DNA from: Thermus sediminis
Lineage (GTDB): Bacteria > Deinococcota > Deinococci > Deinococcales > Thermaceae
Direction: 5' to 3'
DNA length: 64,000 bases
Assembly (NCBI RefSeq): GCF_003426945.1
Contig: NZ_QURO01000004.1
Coordinates: 1,302,001-1,366,000 of the forward strand
How positions within the stretch are numbered: position 1 is the stretch's first letter; each line of letters opens with the position of its first letter. Shown piece by piece: positions 16,698 to 21,968 of this stretch. The notes under the pieces are model-generated. The model saw only the letters and a list, made by a program, of their open reading frames with translations. It did no database searches and was not told the DNA's origin. A program made the position numbers and the translations under genes.

Positions 16698-18377
16698 GTG
16701 CTCCGCACCCTTGGGGGGCTCAGGCTGGAGGGGACTTCCTTTAGCAAGAGGAAGCCCCTCATCCTAGCGGCCTTTCTGGCCCTCGAGGGCCCCAAGTCCC
16801 GCCGCTACCTCCAAGAGCTCTTCTGGCCCCGGGCCGAGGACCCCCAGAACAGCCTCTCCGTGGCCCTTTCCCAGCTCAAGCGGGCCGGGGTGGGGGTCGC
16901 TGGGGGCGAGGTCCTGGAGGCCCGGGTGGCCTGCGACGCCCTCCTCCTCAAGGAGGCCCTGGGCCGAGGCCAGTTGGAGGAGGCCCGGGCCCTTTACCGG
17001 GGCCGGTTTCTGGAGGGGGCGGACGAGGACCTTTCCGAGGAACTGGAGGAATGGGTTTGGTCCACGCGGGAGGCCTTGGCCCAGGCCCTGTACGAAGCCC
17101 ACCGCAAGGAGACCGAGAAACGCTTCGCCCTGGGGCTTAAGGAGGAGGGGGAGGCCCTTTTGCGGAAGGTACTCGCCCTGCCCGGGGTGGCCGAGGTGGC
17201 CGAGGAGGAGCCTGAACGCAGGCCCCTCCCTGAGGAGGTCCGCTTGGCCTTTTACGGGTTGGCCTTCCTAGGGCCGGTCCGGGCCGGTGAGGTCCTAAGG
17301 GTTAGCGCGGACTCCTTGGAAATACTCTGGCGAAGAGGACTCCTTACCCCCACGGGGGAGCCCACCTTCCTTCCCCCGCCCACCCTCGAGGCCCGCCGGG
17401 TGGCCTTGGAACTGGCCCGGAGGCTTCCCCTCTCCGAGGCCGCCCCTTACTACCGCTTAAGCCTTCCCCTCTGGCAGGAGGGGGATGCTTCCCGGGGGAA
17501 AAGGGCCCTTCTGGACCTGGCCCGCAGGGAGGTGGAGGAAAACCCCAGGGAGGCCTTGGCCCTTCTCCAGGACCTGGCCCCAGATCCCGAGGTCCTCCTC
17601 CTCAGGGCGCGGGCTCTAGAGCGCCTGGGGCGGTATGCCGAGGCCTTGGCCCTGTTGGAGGAGGTGCCCGAGGACCCAAGAAAAAGCGCCCTCAAAGGAG
17701 TTCTCTGCTTCCGTATGGGGGAGAAAACCAGGGCCAGGGAGGAGGCGGAGAAGGCCCTCCAGGGGGACCCTTACAGCCAGGGGGAGGGGTGGAACCTTCT
17801 GGGCCTCCTCCTCTTGGGGGAAGGGCGTTTCCAAGAGGCGGCCGAGGCCTTCAGCCGGGCAGCGGTGCGCTTCCTCCTCTCTGGGGAGCGGGTCCGCCAC
17901 CTGGGGGCCTTGGGCAACCGGGCCGTGGCCCTGGCCGAGCTGGGCCAGGGAGAAGAGGCCTTCCAGGAGGTCCTCGAGGCTACGGAGGGCCATCCCCTCC
18001 TTCAGGCCCGCTTCCTCCTGAACCTAGGGGTGGTGAAGGAGCGCCAAGGCCTTTCCCAGGAGGCGGAAGGGCTATACCAGAGGGCCCTGGCCCTGGCGGA
18101 GGGGGTGGGGAACCTCGAGGCCGTGGGCCGGGCCTGGAACAACCTGGGGGCCCTCTACCACCGCCAAAGGAGGAAAGAGGAAGCCCAAGCGGCTTACGAG
18201 AAGGCCCTAGAACTGGCGCGACAGGCTGGGGAACGGCTTCTCCTGGCTGCAGCCCTGGCCAACTGGGCGGAGCTCCGGGGGGACCGGGCCGCCTTGGAGG
18301 AGGCCATAAGGGTCTTGGAGGAGGCAGGGCACCAGGCCCTGGCCCAGCGTTATCGGGCACGGCTAGGGGAAGCCTAG
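16698..18377 (+). CDS. SARP/BTAD-family transcriptional regulator with TPR repeats
   Basis: 559 residues. Residues ~1-70 are the winged helix of SARP activators (FLALEGPKSRRYLQELFWP, then NSLSVALSQLKRA), ~75-160 the helical BTAD domain, and from ~280 to the end a long run of TPR repeats (for example AWNNLGALYHRQRRKEEAQA). It has no central ATPase, unlike AfsR. SARPs bind direct repeats of one helical turn next to the -35 and recruit polymerase. Repeats of exactly that kind precede the two downstream transcription units. GTG start with TAGACT six bases upstream. The signal it reads is unknown. Confidence 0.85.
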   Translation: MLRTLGGLRLEGTSFSKRKPLILAAFLALEGPKSRRYLQELFWPRAEDPQNSLSVALSQLKRAGVGVAGGEVLEARVACDALLLKEALGRGQLEEARALYRGRFLEGADEDLSEELEEWVWSTREALAQALYEAHRKETEKRFALGLKEEGEALLRKVLALPGVAEVAEEEPERRPLPEEVRLAFYGLAFLGPVRAGEVLRVSADSLEILWRRGLLTPTGEPTFLPPPTLEARRVALELARRLPLSEAAPYYRLSLPLWQEGDASRGKRALLDLARREVEENPREALALLQDLAPDPEVLLLRARALERLGRYAEALALLEEVPEDPRKSALKGVLCFRMGEKTRAREEAEKALQGDPYSQGEGWNLLGLLLLGEGRFQEAAEAFSRAAVRFLLSGERVRHLGALGNRAVALAELGQGEEAFQEVLEATEGHPLLQARFLLNLGVVKERQGLSQEAEGLYQRALALAEGVGNLEAVGRAWNNLGALYHRQRRKEEAQAAYEKALELARQAGERLLLAAALANWAELRGDRAALEEAIRVLEEAGHQALAQRYRARLGEA

Positions 18378-18378
18378 G

Positions 18379-18412
18379 CGTTCAGGCTCCGTTCAGACCC
18401 TTGCCGTATTCT
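18379..18412 (+). promoter_or_regulatory. Candidate SARP operator and promoter for the subtilase unit
   Basis: CGTTCAG occurs at 18379 and 18390, exactly 11 bp apart, and is followed 10 bases later by TATTCT (18407-18412) as -10. No usual -35 is present; the repeats take its place, as at SARP-activated promoters. The -10 is 6 bases before the ATG of a 19-codon ORF. Confidence 0.55.
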
Positions 18413-18418
18413 CCCTTC

Positions 18419-18478
18419 ATGCCCATGAGCCTTTGGGACCTGGACGGCCATAGCTTTCCCGCGGAGGTGAAGCCGTGA
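18419..18478 (+). CDS. 19-residue ORF overlapping the subtilase start
   Basis: MPMSLWDLDGHSFPAEVKP is read from an ATG 6 bases after the TATTCT box. Its TGA overlaps the GTG of the subtilase gene (GTGA). On a leaderless message this ORF would be the first thing translated, so it may serve to load ribosomes for the protease. A secreted or signalling peptide is possible but has no signal sequence to support it. Too short to be certain that it is a gene. Confidence 0.4.
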   Translation: MPMSLWDLDGHSFPAEVKP

Positions 18479-19772
18479 GAAAGGCTTTGTGGATCATTCT
18501 CCTGCTTGTGGCCTGCGCTCCCGGGCCCCTGCAGGTGGAGCTTTCGCCCAAGAGGGCCCTGGTGGGGGAGGAAGTGGCGGCTACCCTCACTGGGGCGGGA
18601 GCGGTGGGGGCCAGGGTCCGGGTGGGGGGCGTGGAGGCCGAGGTGGTGCGGGCCTCGGGGAACACCCTGGTCTTCCGGGTGCCGGAGGTGCCGGGAGGGC
18701 CAAGGGCGGTGGAGGTCCAGACCCCCAGGGGCGCTGCCACCGCCACCCTGGGGGTCTTGGGCCAGGTGGCCCGGGACCGGGTCCTCCTACGCCTGCCACC
18801 GGGCCAGTCCCCGGGGGCCCTGCCCCGGGGCTTCTCCCTCCTCCGGAGGGATGACCTTGCGGCCTGCGGCTTCGCCCTAGCGGAGCTGGGCTACACCGGG
18901 GAGGCCCTGGGGCGCGCCCTGGAGGAGCTCGAGGGCCTGGACCCCAGCTATAAGGCCGACCCGGAAAGCCTCTGGAGCCTGGATCGCTGGGGAGCGGAGG
19001 CCATAGGGGCCTTCCGGGCCCACCGGCGGGGCCTTTCTGGGAGGGGGGTGGCCGTGGCCGTCCTGGACACCGGGGTGGACCCCGTCATCCCCCAGCTTCC
19101 CGGCTACGACTTCGTGGAGGAGGACGACATCCCCCAGGACGCCTTCCCCGGGGGCCACGGCACCGGGGCCGCGGGCCTGGTGAAGGAGGTGGCCCCTGGG
19201 GCCGATATCCTCCTGGTGCGGGTCTGCGACGAAGGGGGGGTCTGCCGCGCGAGCCGGGTGGTGCGGGGGGTGTGCTGGGTGGTGGAAAACCGCCAGGGCC
19301 CCACGGTCCTCAACCTGAGCCTGGGGGCGATACCCCAGTGGAGGCCCTGAGGCTGGCCCTAGAGGCGGCCCTTTCCCAGGGCATCCCGGTGGCCGCTGCC
19401 GCGGGCAACCAGGGGAACCAGGGAAGCCCCGCCCACTACCCTGCTGCCCTGGACCTGCCGGGCCTGGTAGCGGTGGCGGCCCTGGAGAGGGATCTCAGCC
19501 CGGCCCCCTACAGCACCCGCGGGGCCTACGTGGACCTCTCGGCCCCGGGCACCGGCCTGGAGTGCCTGACCCCAGGGGGCGGGCAAGGCCTCTGCACTGG
19601 CACCTCCTTAGCCACCCCCCTGGTGGCCGGGGCCATGGCCCTTTGGTTAGAGAAGGACCCTGCTCTCACCCCGGCCCAGCTCCAGCAGCGCCTGGAGGAG
19701 AACGCCCGTTCCTTGCCCTTCTCCCCCCAGGAGGTGGGGAAGGGGATGCTGGACCTCTCCCAGAAGCCTTGA
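18475..19772 (+). CDS. Subtilisin-like serine protease lipoprotein, frameshifted
   Basis: S8-family protease with a lipoprotein signal (LLVAC, C14), a short IPT/TIG-like beta domain (~20-95), a prodomain-like part (~100-165) and the catalytic domain: Asp in DTGVD (D198), His in GGHGTG (H228) in the first frame, and Ser in GTSLATP in the next frame. The reading frame breaks at the G run 19323-19327; one added G joins NLSLGG to DTPVEALR. So the catalytic Ser is cut off as written. It is translationally coupled to the 19-codon ORF. Either a base-call error or a true, perhaps phase-variable, break. Confidence 0.82.
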
Positions 19773-19788
19773 AGCCCTCCCTCCCTAG

Positions 19789-19818
19789 CCCCCGGGGAAG
19801 CCTTTCCCCGGGGGTTTT
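19789..19818 (+). terminator. Rho-independent terminator after the subtilase gene
   Basis: CCCCCGGGGAA, a short loop and TTCCCCGGGGG form an 11-bp stem followed by TTTT. It separates the protease unit from the LamG-like unit. Confidence 0.8.
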
Positions 19819-19830
19819 GCCCTCTTGGGG

Positions 19831-19876
19831 CGTTCATCCCCCGTTCAGGGTCCGTTAAGAAGGCTCATGCTACCTT
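19831..19876 (+). promoter_or_regulatory. Candidate SARP operator upstream of the LamG-like lipoprotein
   Basis: CGTTCAT, CGTTCAG and CGTTAAG start at 19831, 19842 and 19853, each exactly 11 bp apart, and TACCTT (19871-19876) follows as a likely -10. The heptamer, the period and the distance to the -10 match the site at 18379, so both units are likely controlled by the same protein. About 75 bases of leader remain before the ATG. Confidence 0.55.
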
Positions 19877-19951: not shown

Positions 19952-20713
19952 ATGAGTAAATGGACGGCTTTTGGTGTTCTTCTGGTCATCGTCCTTCCAG
20001 CTTGCACGGGACCGCAACAGGTCTGCAACACGCCCACCTGCCCCATCGCCCACTGGCCTATGAACGAAGGGAACGGGGCGACCCAGGTGCAGGACACGGT
20101 GACCAGCCCCATCTTCAACCACGGCATGCCCAAGCCTGGGCCTGTGGTGGCCTGGCCCGGCTTTACCGGGCCCACCTCGGTTACTGGTCAGATGAACGGG
20201 GCCCTCTACTTCCCAGGTAGCGGGGCCACTTACGTGGAGGTGCCCTCCACTCCCGACCTTAACCTGGGGTATGGGAGCTTCTACCTGGAGGCCTACGTAG
20301 CTCCCGTTCAGTGTGGGCCGGGATTTTACTACCCCATCCTGGACAAGTGGGACGCTGCTAGTCAGAATGGTTACACCTTCTTCCTGGAAGGGGTAGGGCC
20401 AGGGCAAGTGCGGGCAGCCCTCAGGCTTGGTGGAGCAACCTTTACCTCCAGCGCAAACTTCACCGCCAACTTCCAGCCCCCCGCCACGGGTACCTGGACC
20501 AGGGTGGCGGTAAAGGTAGACGGGGGGAACGGGGTTTTCTACGTGAATGGAAACCCGGCTGGTACCTTCACCGCCCCTTCTGGGAGCACCACCAACACCC
20601 TTCCCCTTTGGCTTGGCGCCCTGCACACTCCGCCCAGCAGGCTTTTCCACTGCGAGATCGGCCTGGACGAGGTAAAAATTGAAAAAATCAACCCGGCCTT
20701 CAGCACGCCTTAA
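19952..20713 (+). CDS. LamG / concanavalin-like surface lipoprotein
   Basis: 253 residues. A lipobox LPAC near residue 18 marks an exported lipoprotein. The rest is a beta sandwich of LamG type: IAHWPMNEGNG at the start, GALYFPGSG, VEVPSTPDLNLG, a central strand FYLEAYVAP and GTWTRVAVKVDG before the last strands. LamG domains bind sugars or proteins on surfaces. GGGAGCAGG precedes the ATG. The next lipoprotein gene starts 11 bases after its stop. Partner or ligand unknown. Confidence 0.78.
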   Translation: MSKWTAFGVLLVIVLPACTGPQQVCNTPTCPIAHWPMNEGNGATQVQDTVTSPIFNHGMPKPGPVVAWPGFTGPTSVTGQMNGALYFPGSGATYVEVPSTPDLNLGYGSFYLEAYVAPVQCGPGFYYPILDKWDAASQNGYTFFLEGVGPGQVRAALRLGGATFTSSANFTANFQPPATGTWTRVAVKVDGGNGVFYVNGNPAGTFTAPSGSTTNTLPLWLGALHTPPSRLFHCEIGLDEVKIEKINPAFSTP

Positions 20714-20723
20714 GGAGGAAACC

Positions 20724-21968
20724 ATGAAAGGCCTGAAGCTCTTTGCCCCTCTTTTCTTGGTTCTGGCCGCTTGCAGCGGCGGTCCCCAGACCCTGAACGT
20801 GAGCCTAGTGGATGGCCTCGGGGAGCCCCTACAGCCCCTGGCCGCGGCCTGGCGTATCGGGCCCAGCTCGGGTAATCCCTGGGTTGCCCTGCCCGCGGGG
20901 CAGTCCAACTGGTCCCTCCCCATCCCCTCGGGGGCCCGCTTCCAGGTAGCTTTCCGTTGCCCAGACGTTGGCACCACCCAGTTCTACGTGAGCCTGGACT
21001 TGAGGCGGAGTGAGCTGGGGTCTAACCTTGTGGTGCGGTGCCCCTCGGCCTATGCCAGCCCTACGGCGCTTGTGGATGGAGGTGTAAATCCTTCCCTAAG
21101 CTCTGGCAGTGCCTTCTCGGCCAGGGGAACAGTGGCTGTTGCCAACTCCATTTTCGGAACATCATACTCCTCCTTGGTTGCGCCAACGGGAACCGGGCGG
21201 GAAGTGGCTGTTTTTGGGGTTTCATCAGGAAACCACTACTTCGGTCGGACTGGCCTTGTGAATATCCCACCCGGTGGAGGTACCTTCCATGTTTTTCCCA
21301 TAGTTGCAGGTACCCTAAACGTCGTGACTCCCCACATCACTTCTTATGCGGGCTTGGTTCTCCGCTCCTCGGTTCCAGTGGACCTGGCCAACCTGTTGGG
21401 GCCCGGGTCCCATTCTGTAGCCCGCCCCACCAACCTGGGCCCGGGTGACCTCTTCCAGTTCTGGACCTGCCATAGCTCCTGCTGTGGCATCCACCGCAGG
21501 GATGCTATGGACCCTGCGGTAGCCTCCGGGAGTAACTTCCCCCTTCCTGTGGTGCCCAACCTATTCCTTACAGTTAACGAAACCCACAACCCCACCAGCC
21601 TACCCACGTTTACCTTCTCTACTACGGGATCCTCTAGTGCATCGCTAAGCGCCTTGGGCTATGCCCTCTTCCTGGCAGAACCAGGGGTGCGCTACTGGCG
21701 GCACTTCGTGAGCCCTGGCGCACTGGGAAGTGCCGCCAACTACTATGTGGACGTGGAAAGCGCTTCGGGGTTTAGCGGTATCCTTCCCAACTCGGGAGCA
21801 TCCGTTCAGCTAAATGCAACGATCTTCTTCGGTGACAAGCCCCTGAGCACCCTTTTTGCCGCCAGGCCCATTCCTGAGGAAACCCACGCGGCCTATACCC
21901 TTTTCCTGGACCGGATGCTGCCGGTGCGCTTGGAGGCCTTCTTCTACCAAACTTCCTTCACCTGGTGA
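20724..21968 (+). CDS. Large surface lipoprotein of unknown function
   Basis: 414 residues from the ATG at 20724, which has AAGGAGG upstream. The signal peptide ends in LAAC. The mature part is rich in Ser, Thr, Asn, Gly and Pro with beta-strand-like alternation and contains a Cys-Cys pair in SSCCGIHRRD. No family recognised. Base composition is visibly less GC-rich and codon choice less strict than in the neighbours, which suggests recent acquisition or relaxed selection. It is the last gene of the SARP-linked cluster and overlaps the convergent aminotransferase gene by 11 bases. Confidence 0.75.
   Translation: MKGLKLFAPLFLVLAACSGGPQTLNVSLVDGLGEPLQPLAAAWRIGPSSGNPWVALPAGQSNWSLPIPSGARFQVAFRCPDVGTTQFYVSLDLRRSELGSNLVVRCPSAYASPTALVDGGVNPSLSSGSAFSARGTVAVANSIFGTSYSSLVAPTGTGREVAVFGVSSGNHYFGRTGLVNIPPGGGTFHVFPIVAGTLNVVTPHITSYAGLVLRSSVPVDLANLLGPGSHSVARPTNLGPGDLFQFWTCHSSCCGIHRRDAMDPAVASGSNFPLPVVPNLFLTVNETHNPTSLPTFTFSTTGSSSASLSALGYALFLAEPGVRYWRHFVSPGALGSAANYYVDVESASGFSGILPNSGASVQLNATIFFGDKPLSTLFAARPIPEETHAAYTLFLDRMLPVRLEAFFYQTSFTW

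Follow-up and report, generated by a model that had tools for sequence, protein, structure and literature searches.

A conserved array of 11-bp direct repeats as the predicted operator of a SARP-type activator at surface lipoprotein promoters of Thermus sediminis and other Thermaceae

Two promoters of Thermus sediminis carry head-to-tail arrays of the heptamer CGTTCAG close upstream of the -10 element, and these arrays are very likely the operators of an adjacent SARP-type activator that would replace the -35 element. The SARP family of activators is known chiefly for the control of antibiotics in Streptomyces. The heptamer is kept at a fixed distance before lipoprotein genes in dozens of relatives, which makes it very probably a landing site of this family. 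A sequence-only reading of the window (the whole stretch of 64,000 nucleotides analysed here) had proposed CGTTCAG arrays as the operator motif of a thermophile SARP, a prediction that the rarity of the motif, its conservation and its SARP neighbour support. It would provide a concrete, widely conserved operator and a surface-lipoprotein regulon, both predicted, for SARPs in Deinococcota, for which no SARP operator was found described in the literature searched.

Array 1 (CGTTCAG-GCTC-CGTTCAG, 18379..18396), which is conserved in relatives, begins 1 bp past the stop codon of the SARP gene, its heptamers occupying 18379-18385 and 18390-18396. Array 2 (CGTTCAT-CCCC-CGTTCAG-GGTC-CGTTAAG, 19831..19859) consists of three repeats, with heptamers at 19831, 19842 and 19853, and the same triple is present in the relative G005. 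All five heptamers lie on the + strand at an exact 11-bp period, their coordinates and period being as first described. On the same strand, the -10 of promoter 1 (TATTCT, 18407..18412) lies 10 bp past the last heptamer and that of promoter 2 (TACCTT, 19871..19876) 11 bp past it. The distance of 10-11 bases given by the sequence-only reading holds for both promoters and can be refined, in that the consensus is 11 bp and promoter 1 is a 1-bp exception, the gap being 11 bp at its counterpart in G005. Neither promoter has a -35, as had been claimed: among hexamers at a spacer of 15-19, the best match to TTGACA reached at most 2 of 6 positions at both, and a promoter scan found no sigma-70 promoter pair at either. 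A weak match at 20697 (CCTTCAGCACGCCTTAAG) was ruled out as an array, being without a -10 and overlapping a ribosome-binding site.

The pair CGTTCAGN4CGTTCAG with up to one mismatch has three matches in the window, all within arrays 1 and 2, and none in 100 dinucleotide shuffles, which bears out the earlier argument that two such arrays would seldom arise by chance; at up to three mismatches there were four matches against 3.5 expected, a threshold at which the scan is uninformative. A heptamer profile built from relatives found nothing else as strong as the two arrays in the 64 kb. Neither is the motif frequent at random genome positions: the whole T. sediminis genome holds a single further place with up to one mismatch (C4:1453639/1453650), a triple array followed by TACCCT after a gap of 11 bp. 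The pattern SGTTCAGN5GTTMAG was matched 52 times across 50 Thermaceae genomes, against 4 for the reversed pattern.

The neighbouring gene (16698..18377, + strand) starts with GTG 10 bp after folC and encodes a protein of 559 aa, comprising an OmpR-like winged helix (residues ~1-78, recognition helix 49-62), a BTAD domain (~80-160) and C-terminal TPR/helical repeats. Its BTAD scores 23.3 bits against PF03704 (cut-off 22.1), and 11 of 16 members match that profile at E up to 1. The model of the N-terminal part (pLDDT 94) follows the winged-helix order, and its only confident fold match in the PDB is AfsR in an initiation complex (8k60; probability 1.00, E 1.3e-3, next hit 0.6). By sequence, the Pfam Trans_reg_C/OmpR-type profile did not match the protein, and a PDB search with an N-terminal profile returned no SARP, fold comparison alone giving one; a fold search with the full-length protein returned TPR proteins only. 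With the BTAD above its cut-off, a TPR C-terminus and the AfsR fold match, the SARP label given to this gene earlier is therefore right, and the features of the family are present, namely an OmpR-type DNA-binding domain, a BTAD directly after it and direct repeats near the -10. No ATPase (NOD) domain was recognised in the protein and no receiver domain is present; against the AfsR family NF053617 of NCBIfam (SARP-NOD-TPR) it scores 33.1 bits versus a cut-off of 1430, in the TPR part only, so that it would work like AfsR but is not an AfsR.

Of 27 Thermus genomes, 18 have a homologue of this SARP at E up to 0.001, some of the weakest matching in the TPR part only. Full-length or related forms extend to all five Thermaceae genera covered, with carriers such as T. 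igniterrae, T. arciformis, T. brockianus, M. rufus, M. taiwanensis and Calidithermus roseus. Orthologues of all five genera have an array, usually directly behind the SARP gene, the motif being conserved alongside its presumed regulator. In clade A (Thermus, Meiothermus, Calidithermus and two further genera) it lies directly or within ~100 bp after almost every stop codon of the gene (SARP1), the stop codon often falling inside the second heptamer; in clade B (G014, G011, G012, G021 and G024) the array has three or four repeats and sits in the divergent promoter, and none is found downstream. Many arrays have three or four repeats, a refinement of the sequence-only reading, and the window's layout of two arrays ~1.5 kb apart recurs in G005, G006, G013, G014, G019 and G049. 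A longer paralogue in Calidithermus chliarophilus likewise carries CGTTCATGCGCCGTTAAG, immediately after the region that matched. Among the 50 Thermaceae genomes, the strict operator is present in 25 of the 29 with full-length SARP1 (G024, where the gene is interrupted, included) and in 3 of the 21 without (Fisher p 4e-7, a value that overstates the case because genomes and heptamers are kin by descent); for Thermus only, the counts are 11 of 14 with SARP versus 1 of 13 without. One of the three operator-positive SARP1-free genomes is only 65% complete. SARP genomes without the strict operator have variant arrays (G021, G024 and G048) or GTTAAG arrays (G016), and in G008 the SARP is cut to 247 aa and there is no array beside the gene.

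Fifty-five arrays were collected without requiring a -10, and TANNNT lies exactly 11 bp after the last heptamer in 45 of them, the next commonest offset accounting for 3 and the background being 0.5%; the arrays are not independent by descent, so we give the binomial significance of this proportion no weight. In a few apparent exceptions a degenerate third repeat 11 bp on, assigned by a fixed pattern, restores the 11-bp gap. The consensus consists of repeated (C)GTT(C/A)AG-N4 units, followed by N11 with GC at its end and by TANNNT. The first base of the heptamer covaries with residue 59 of the SARP, being C in 55 of 62 cases beside Gln59 SARPs against 2 of 25 beside Ala59 or Arg59 SARPs. We tentatively take this residue to correspond to Arg92 of AfsR, from an alignment guided by the residue numbers of PMC10936776. 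In AfsR, R92 and T88 contact bases (PMC10936776). Within one genome (G013), an Ala59 SARP goes with GGTTCAG arrays and its Gln59 paralogue with a CGTTCAG/CGTTAAG array, whereas the Ala59 SARP of G016 has mixed first heptamer bases. With few independent lineages (two or three) the correlation is only suggestive, and what it suggests is that each SARP may read the arrays beside its own gene. Such a genome, in which paralogous SARPs differ in their recognition residue and their operators differ to match, offers a natural specificity experiment.

At the afsS promoter of Streptomyces coelicolor, the afs box consists of two 11-bp repeats from -40 to -19, a poor -35 (TTCAGC, -38 to -33) lies inside the upstream repeat, and each repeat is occupied by one AfsR protomer, the neighbouring protomers carrying sigma region 4 (PMC10936776). 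When the -10 hexamer is counted as -12 to -7, the first base of array 1 falls at -40 and that of the consensus array at -41, and the register of the afs box and the Thermus arrays to the -10 is equal within ~1 bp. They share 11-bp direct repeats, a TTCAG core, overlap of the -35 position and a poor -35, and their proteins share the SARP fold and a C-terminal TPR domain. Besides the unrecognised NOD domain, the Thermus SARP differs in belonging to Thermaceae, not Actinobacteria, in its surface lipoprotein targets and in having Gln59 at the place tentatively aligned with Arg92; the arrays differ in having up to four repeats and in that an operator lies where the regulator gene ends (its 3' end). 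An AfsR-like mechanism would be the simplest reading of the Thermus arrays, and this likeness suggests that AfsR-type, -35-replacing activation may also work outside Actinobacteria. Two or more SARP protomers would line up along a single face of the DNA, bound to 11-bp units arranged head to tail, at a site upstream of the usual -35 place and overlapping it, and would serve sigma region 4 and the core of RNA polymerase as a protein landing site in lieu of a -35. With the SARP standing in for that element, the weak TANNNT -10 would be used solely while the SARP is active, the TPR domain presumably gating its activity on a signal. In the window, SARP activation of promoter 1 would switch on a secreted subtilase lipoprotein, and that of promoter 2 a unit encoding two more surface lipoproteins. 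Thermus-group RNA polymerase is well suited to structural work.

The strongest rival, itself improbable, assigns the arrays to another response regulator of the OmpR/PhoB type, which would read them as a Pho-box-like 11-bp repeat, with the SARP as bystander or site-sharer. Pho boxes are likewise 11-bp direct repeats read by OmpR-type domains, those of the response regulators PhoB and PhoP, which have a receiver domain where the Thermus SARP has none, and AfsR and PhoP overlap at Streptomyces promoters (PMC10936776). CGTTAAG-N4-CGTTAAG pairs are conserved before unrelated genes, also in SARP1-free genomes (among them the genes of a 358-aa membrane protein behind speA and of a HAD-type phosphatase, a CapD-like gene and a second SARP-like gene), hence the word alone does not identify the regulator and another OmpR-type regulator could read a similar one. 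However, the CGTTCAG type is nearly absent from SARP1-free genomes, arrays adjoin SARP1 genes of two clades in two gene arrangements, and array variants follow residue 59 of the neighbouring SARP. Somewhat less probable still is that the SARP acts as a repressor, or that the arrays bring it to membrane-protein genes for some other reason, in either case without activating in place of a -35; sequence does not reveal whether control is positive or negative, but the missing -35 at both promoters, the constant gap of 11 bp before the -10 in 45 arrays and the arrangement of the AfsR activator complex all speak for activation. That the repeats are due to chance in G+C-rich DNA, or conserved merely through overlap with the SARP 3' coding end (many relatives do have the stop codon within the second heptamer), has virtually no chance of being correct and is already refuted by the shuffle and reversed-pattern controls, by array 1 of the window, which begins after the SARP stop, and by second arrays and divergent clade-B arrays that do not overlap a SARP gene.

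As probable operators of the adjacent SARP, the arrays can also be set beside those of small SARPs and SARP-LAL regulators (ActII-4, RedD and PimR), which likewise have heptamers at an 11-bp period close upstream of the -10; the Thermus system is unlike these in its targets, its TPR extension and the 10-11 bp from heptamer end to -10. Target promoters of SARPs characteristically have direct repeats at 11 or 22 bp close to the -10. For the gap, the rule cited in PMC10936776 is that 8 bp separate the 3' repeat from the -10, a difference from 10-11 bp that depends on where the repeat end is set. DnrS of Thermus thermophilus, compared by its description in part of PMC5748679, is also a BTAD-containing activator in Thermus, but combines its BTAD with a GAF sensor and has denitrification targets; that part of the paper describes no operator of the CGTTCAG-array type for it. 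Our literature search found no paper naming SARP with Meiothermus and Thermus, and papers on Thermus and AfsR were off topic by title.

The first predicted target is an S8 (subtilase) lipoprotein gene (18475..19772, + strand) with a broken frame. Near 19330 it has one G fewer in a G run than the G005 orthologue, which breaks the frame; sequencing error, slippage and a genuinely broken gene cannot be told apart here. The second predicted target (19952..20713, + strand) encodes a lipoprotein with a LamG/concanavalin-like domain (Laminin_G_3) and is followed after 10 bp, in the same unit, by a likely third (20724..21968, + strand), also a lipoprotein, from a family that in G014 provides the target of the divergent array next to the clade-B SARP as well (33% identity, E 3e-32). 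Between the two units, a G+C-rich inverted repeat followed by TTTT (cccccggggaagcctttccccgggggtttt, 19790..19820, + strand), read by eye, is likely to be the terminator that parts them; an automated scan did not report one at this place. The expected enrichment before lipoprotein genes holds in relatives, where a lipobox is present in most array targets (38 with a narrow pattern and several more by eye) and the first target is in general either a subtilase lipoprotein or a lipoprotein with a glycine-rich N-terminus and no assigned family. Surface remodelling or nutrient capture would be a guess at the role of the regulon.

A small ORF of 19 aa (MPMSLWDLDGHSFPAEVKP, 18419..18478, + strand), conserved in relatives, has a stop that overlaps the start of the protease gene. 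An ORF of 19-20 aa (MP-x-SLW/LDL-x-G...) lies between operator and subtilase gene in 12 of 13 relatives examined, and in several relatives its frame continues into the subtilase gene, in the other frame. It is conceivable, but a long shot, that the whole forms a self-contained module in which the TPR domain reads a peptide (for example from the ORF MPxSLxDLxG or from subtilase products) and the SARP switches on the surface lipoproteins. If true, a SARP would here form the core of a peptide-sensing circuit, in place of the known TPR regulators of Gram-positive bacteria.

The third perfect array of the T. sediminis genome (C4:1453639; L083 2140-2168) and its -10 now face transposase-like ORFs. 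Its original target seems to have been lost or moved; in G020 a similar array precedes a Big-domain lipoprotein, which was not found within 7 kb here. CGTTAAG-N4-CGTTAAG pairs lie upstream of a second SARP-like gene (MKVRLPLYGPARAEGP...) at loci L061, L066 and L073 (G008, G003 and G022), possibly an autoregulated second SARP system; in G003 the divergent gene beside it has its own CGTTAAG pair. Directly upstream of the membrane-protein gene (358 aa in most, 356 aa in T. sediminis; L081, L062, L063, L067, L078 and others), such pairs stand ~20 bp from array to start codon, also in SARP1-free genomes. CGTTAA/CGTTCA pairs are likewise conserved ~30-40 bp upstream of the start codons of the CapD-like gene (L064, L069 and L077) and the HAD-type phosphatase gene (L065, L079 and L082), in several Thermus species, including some without SARP1.
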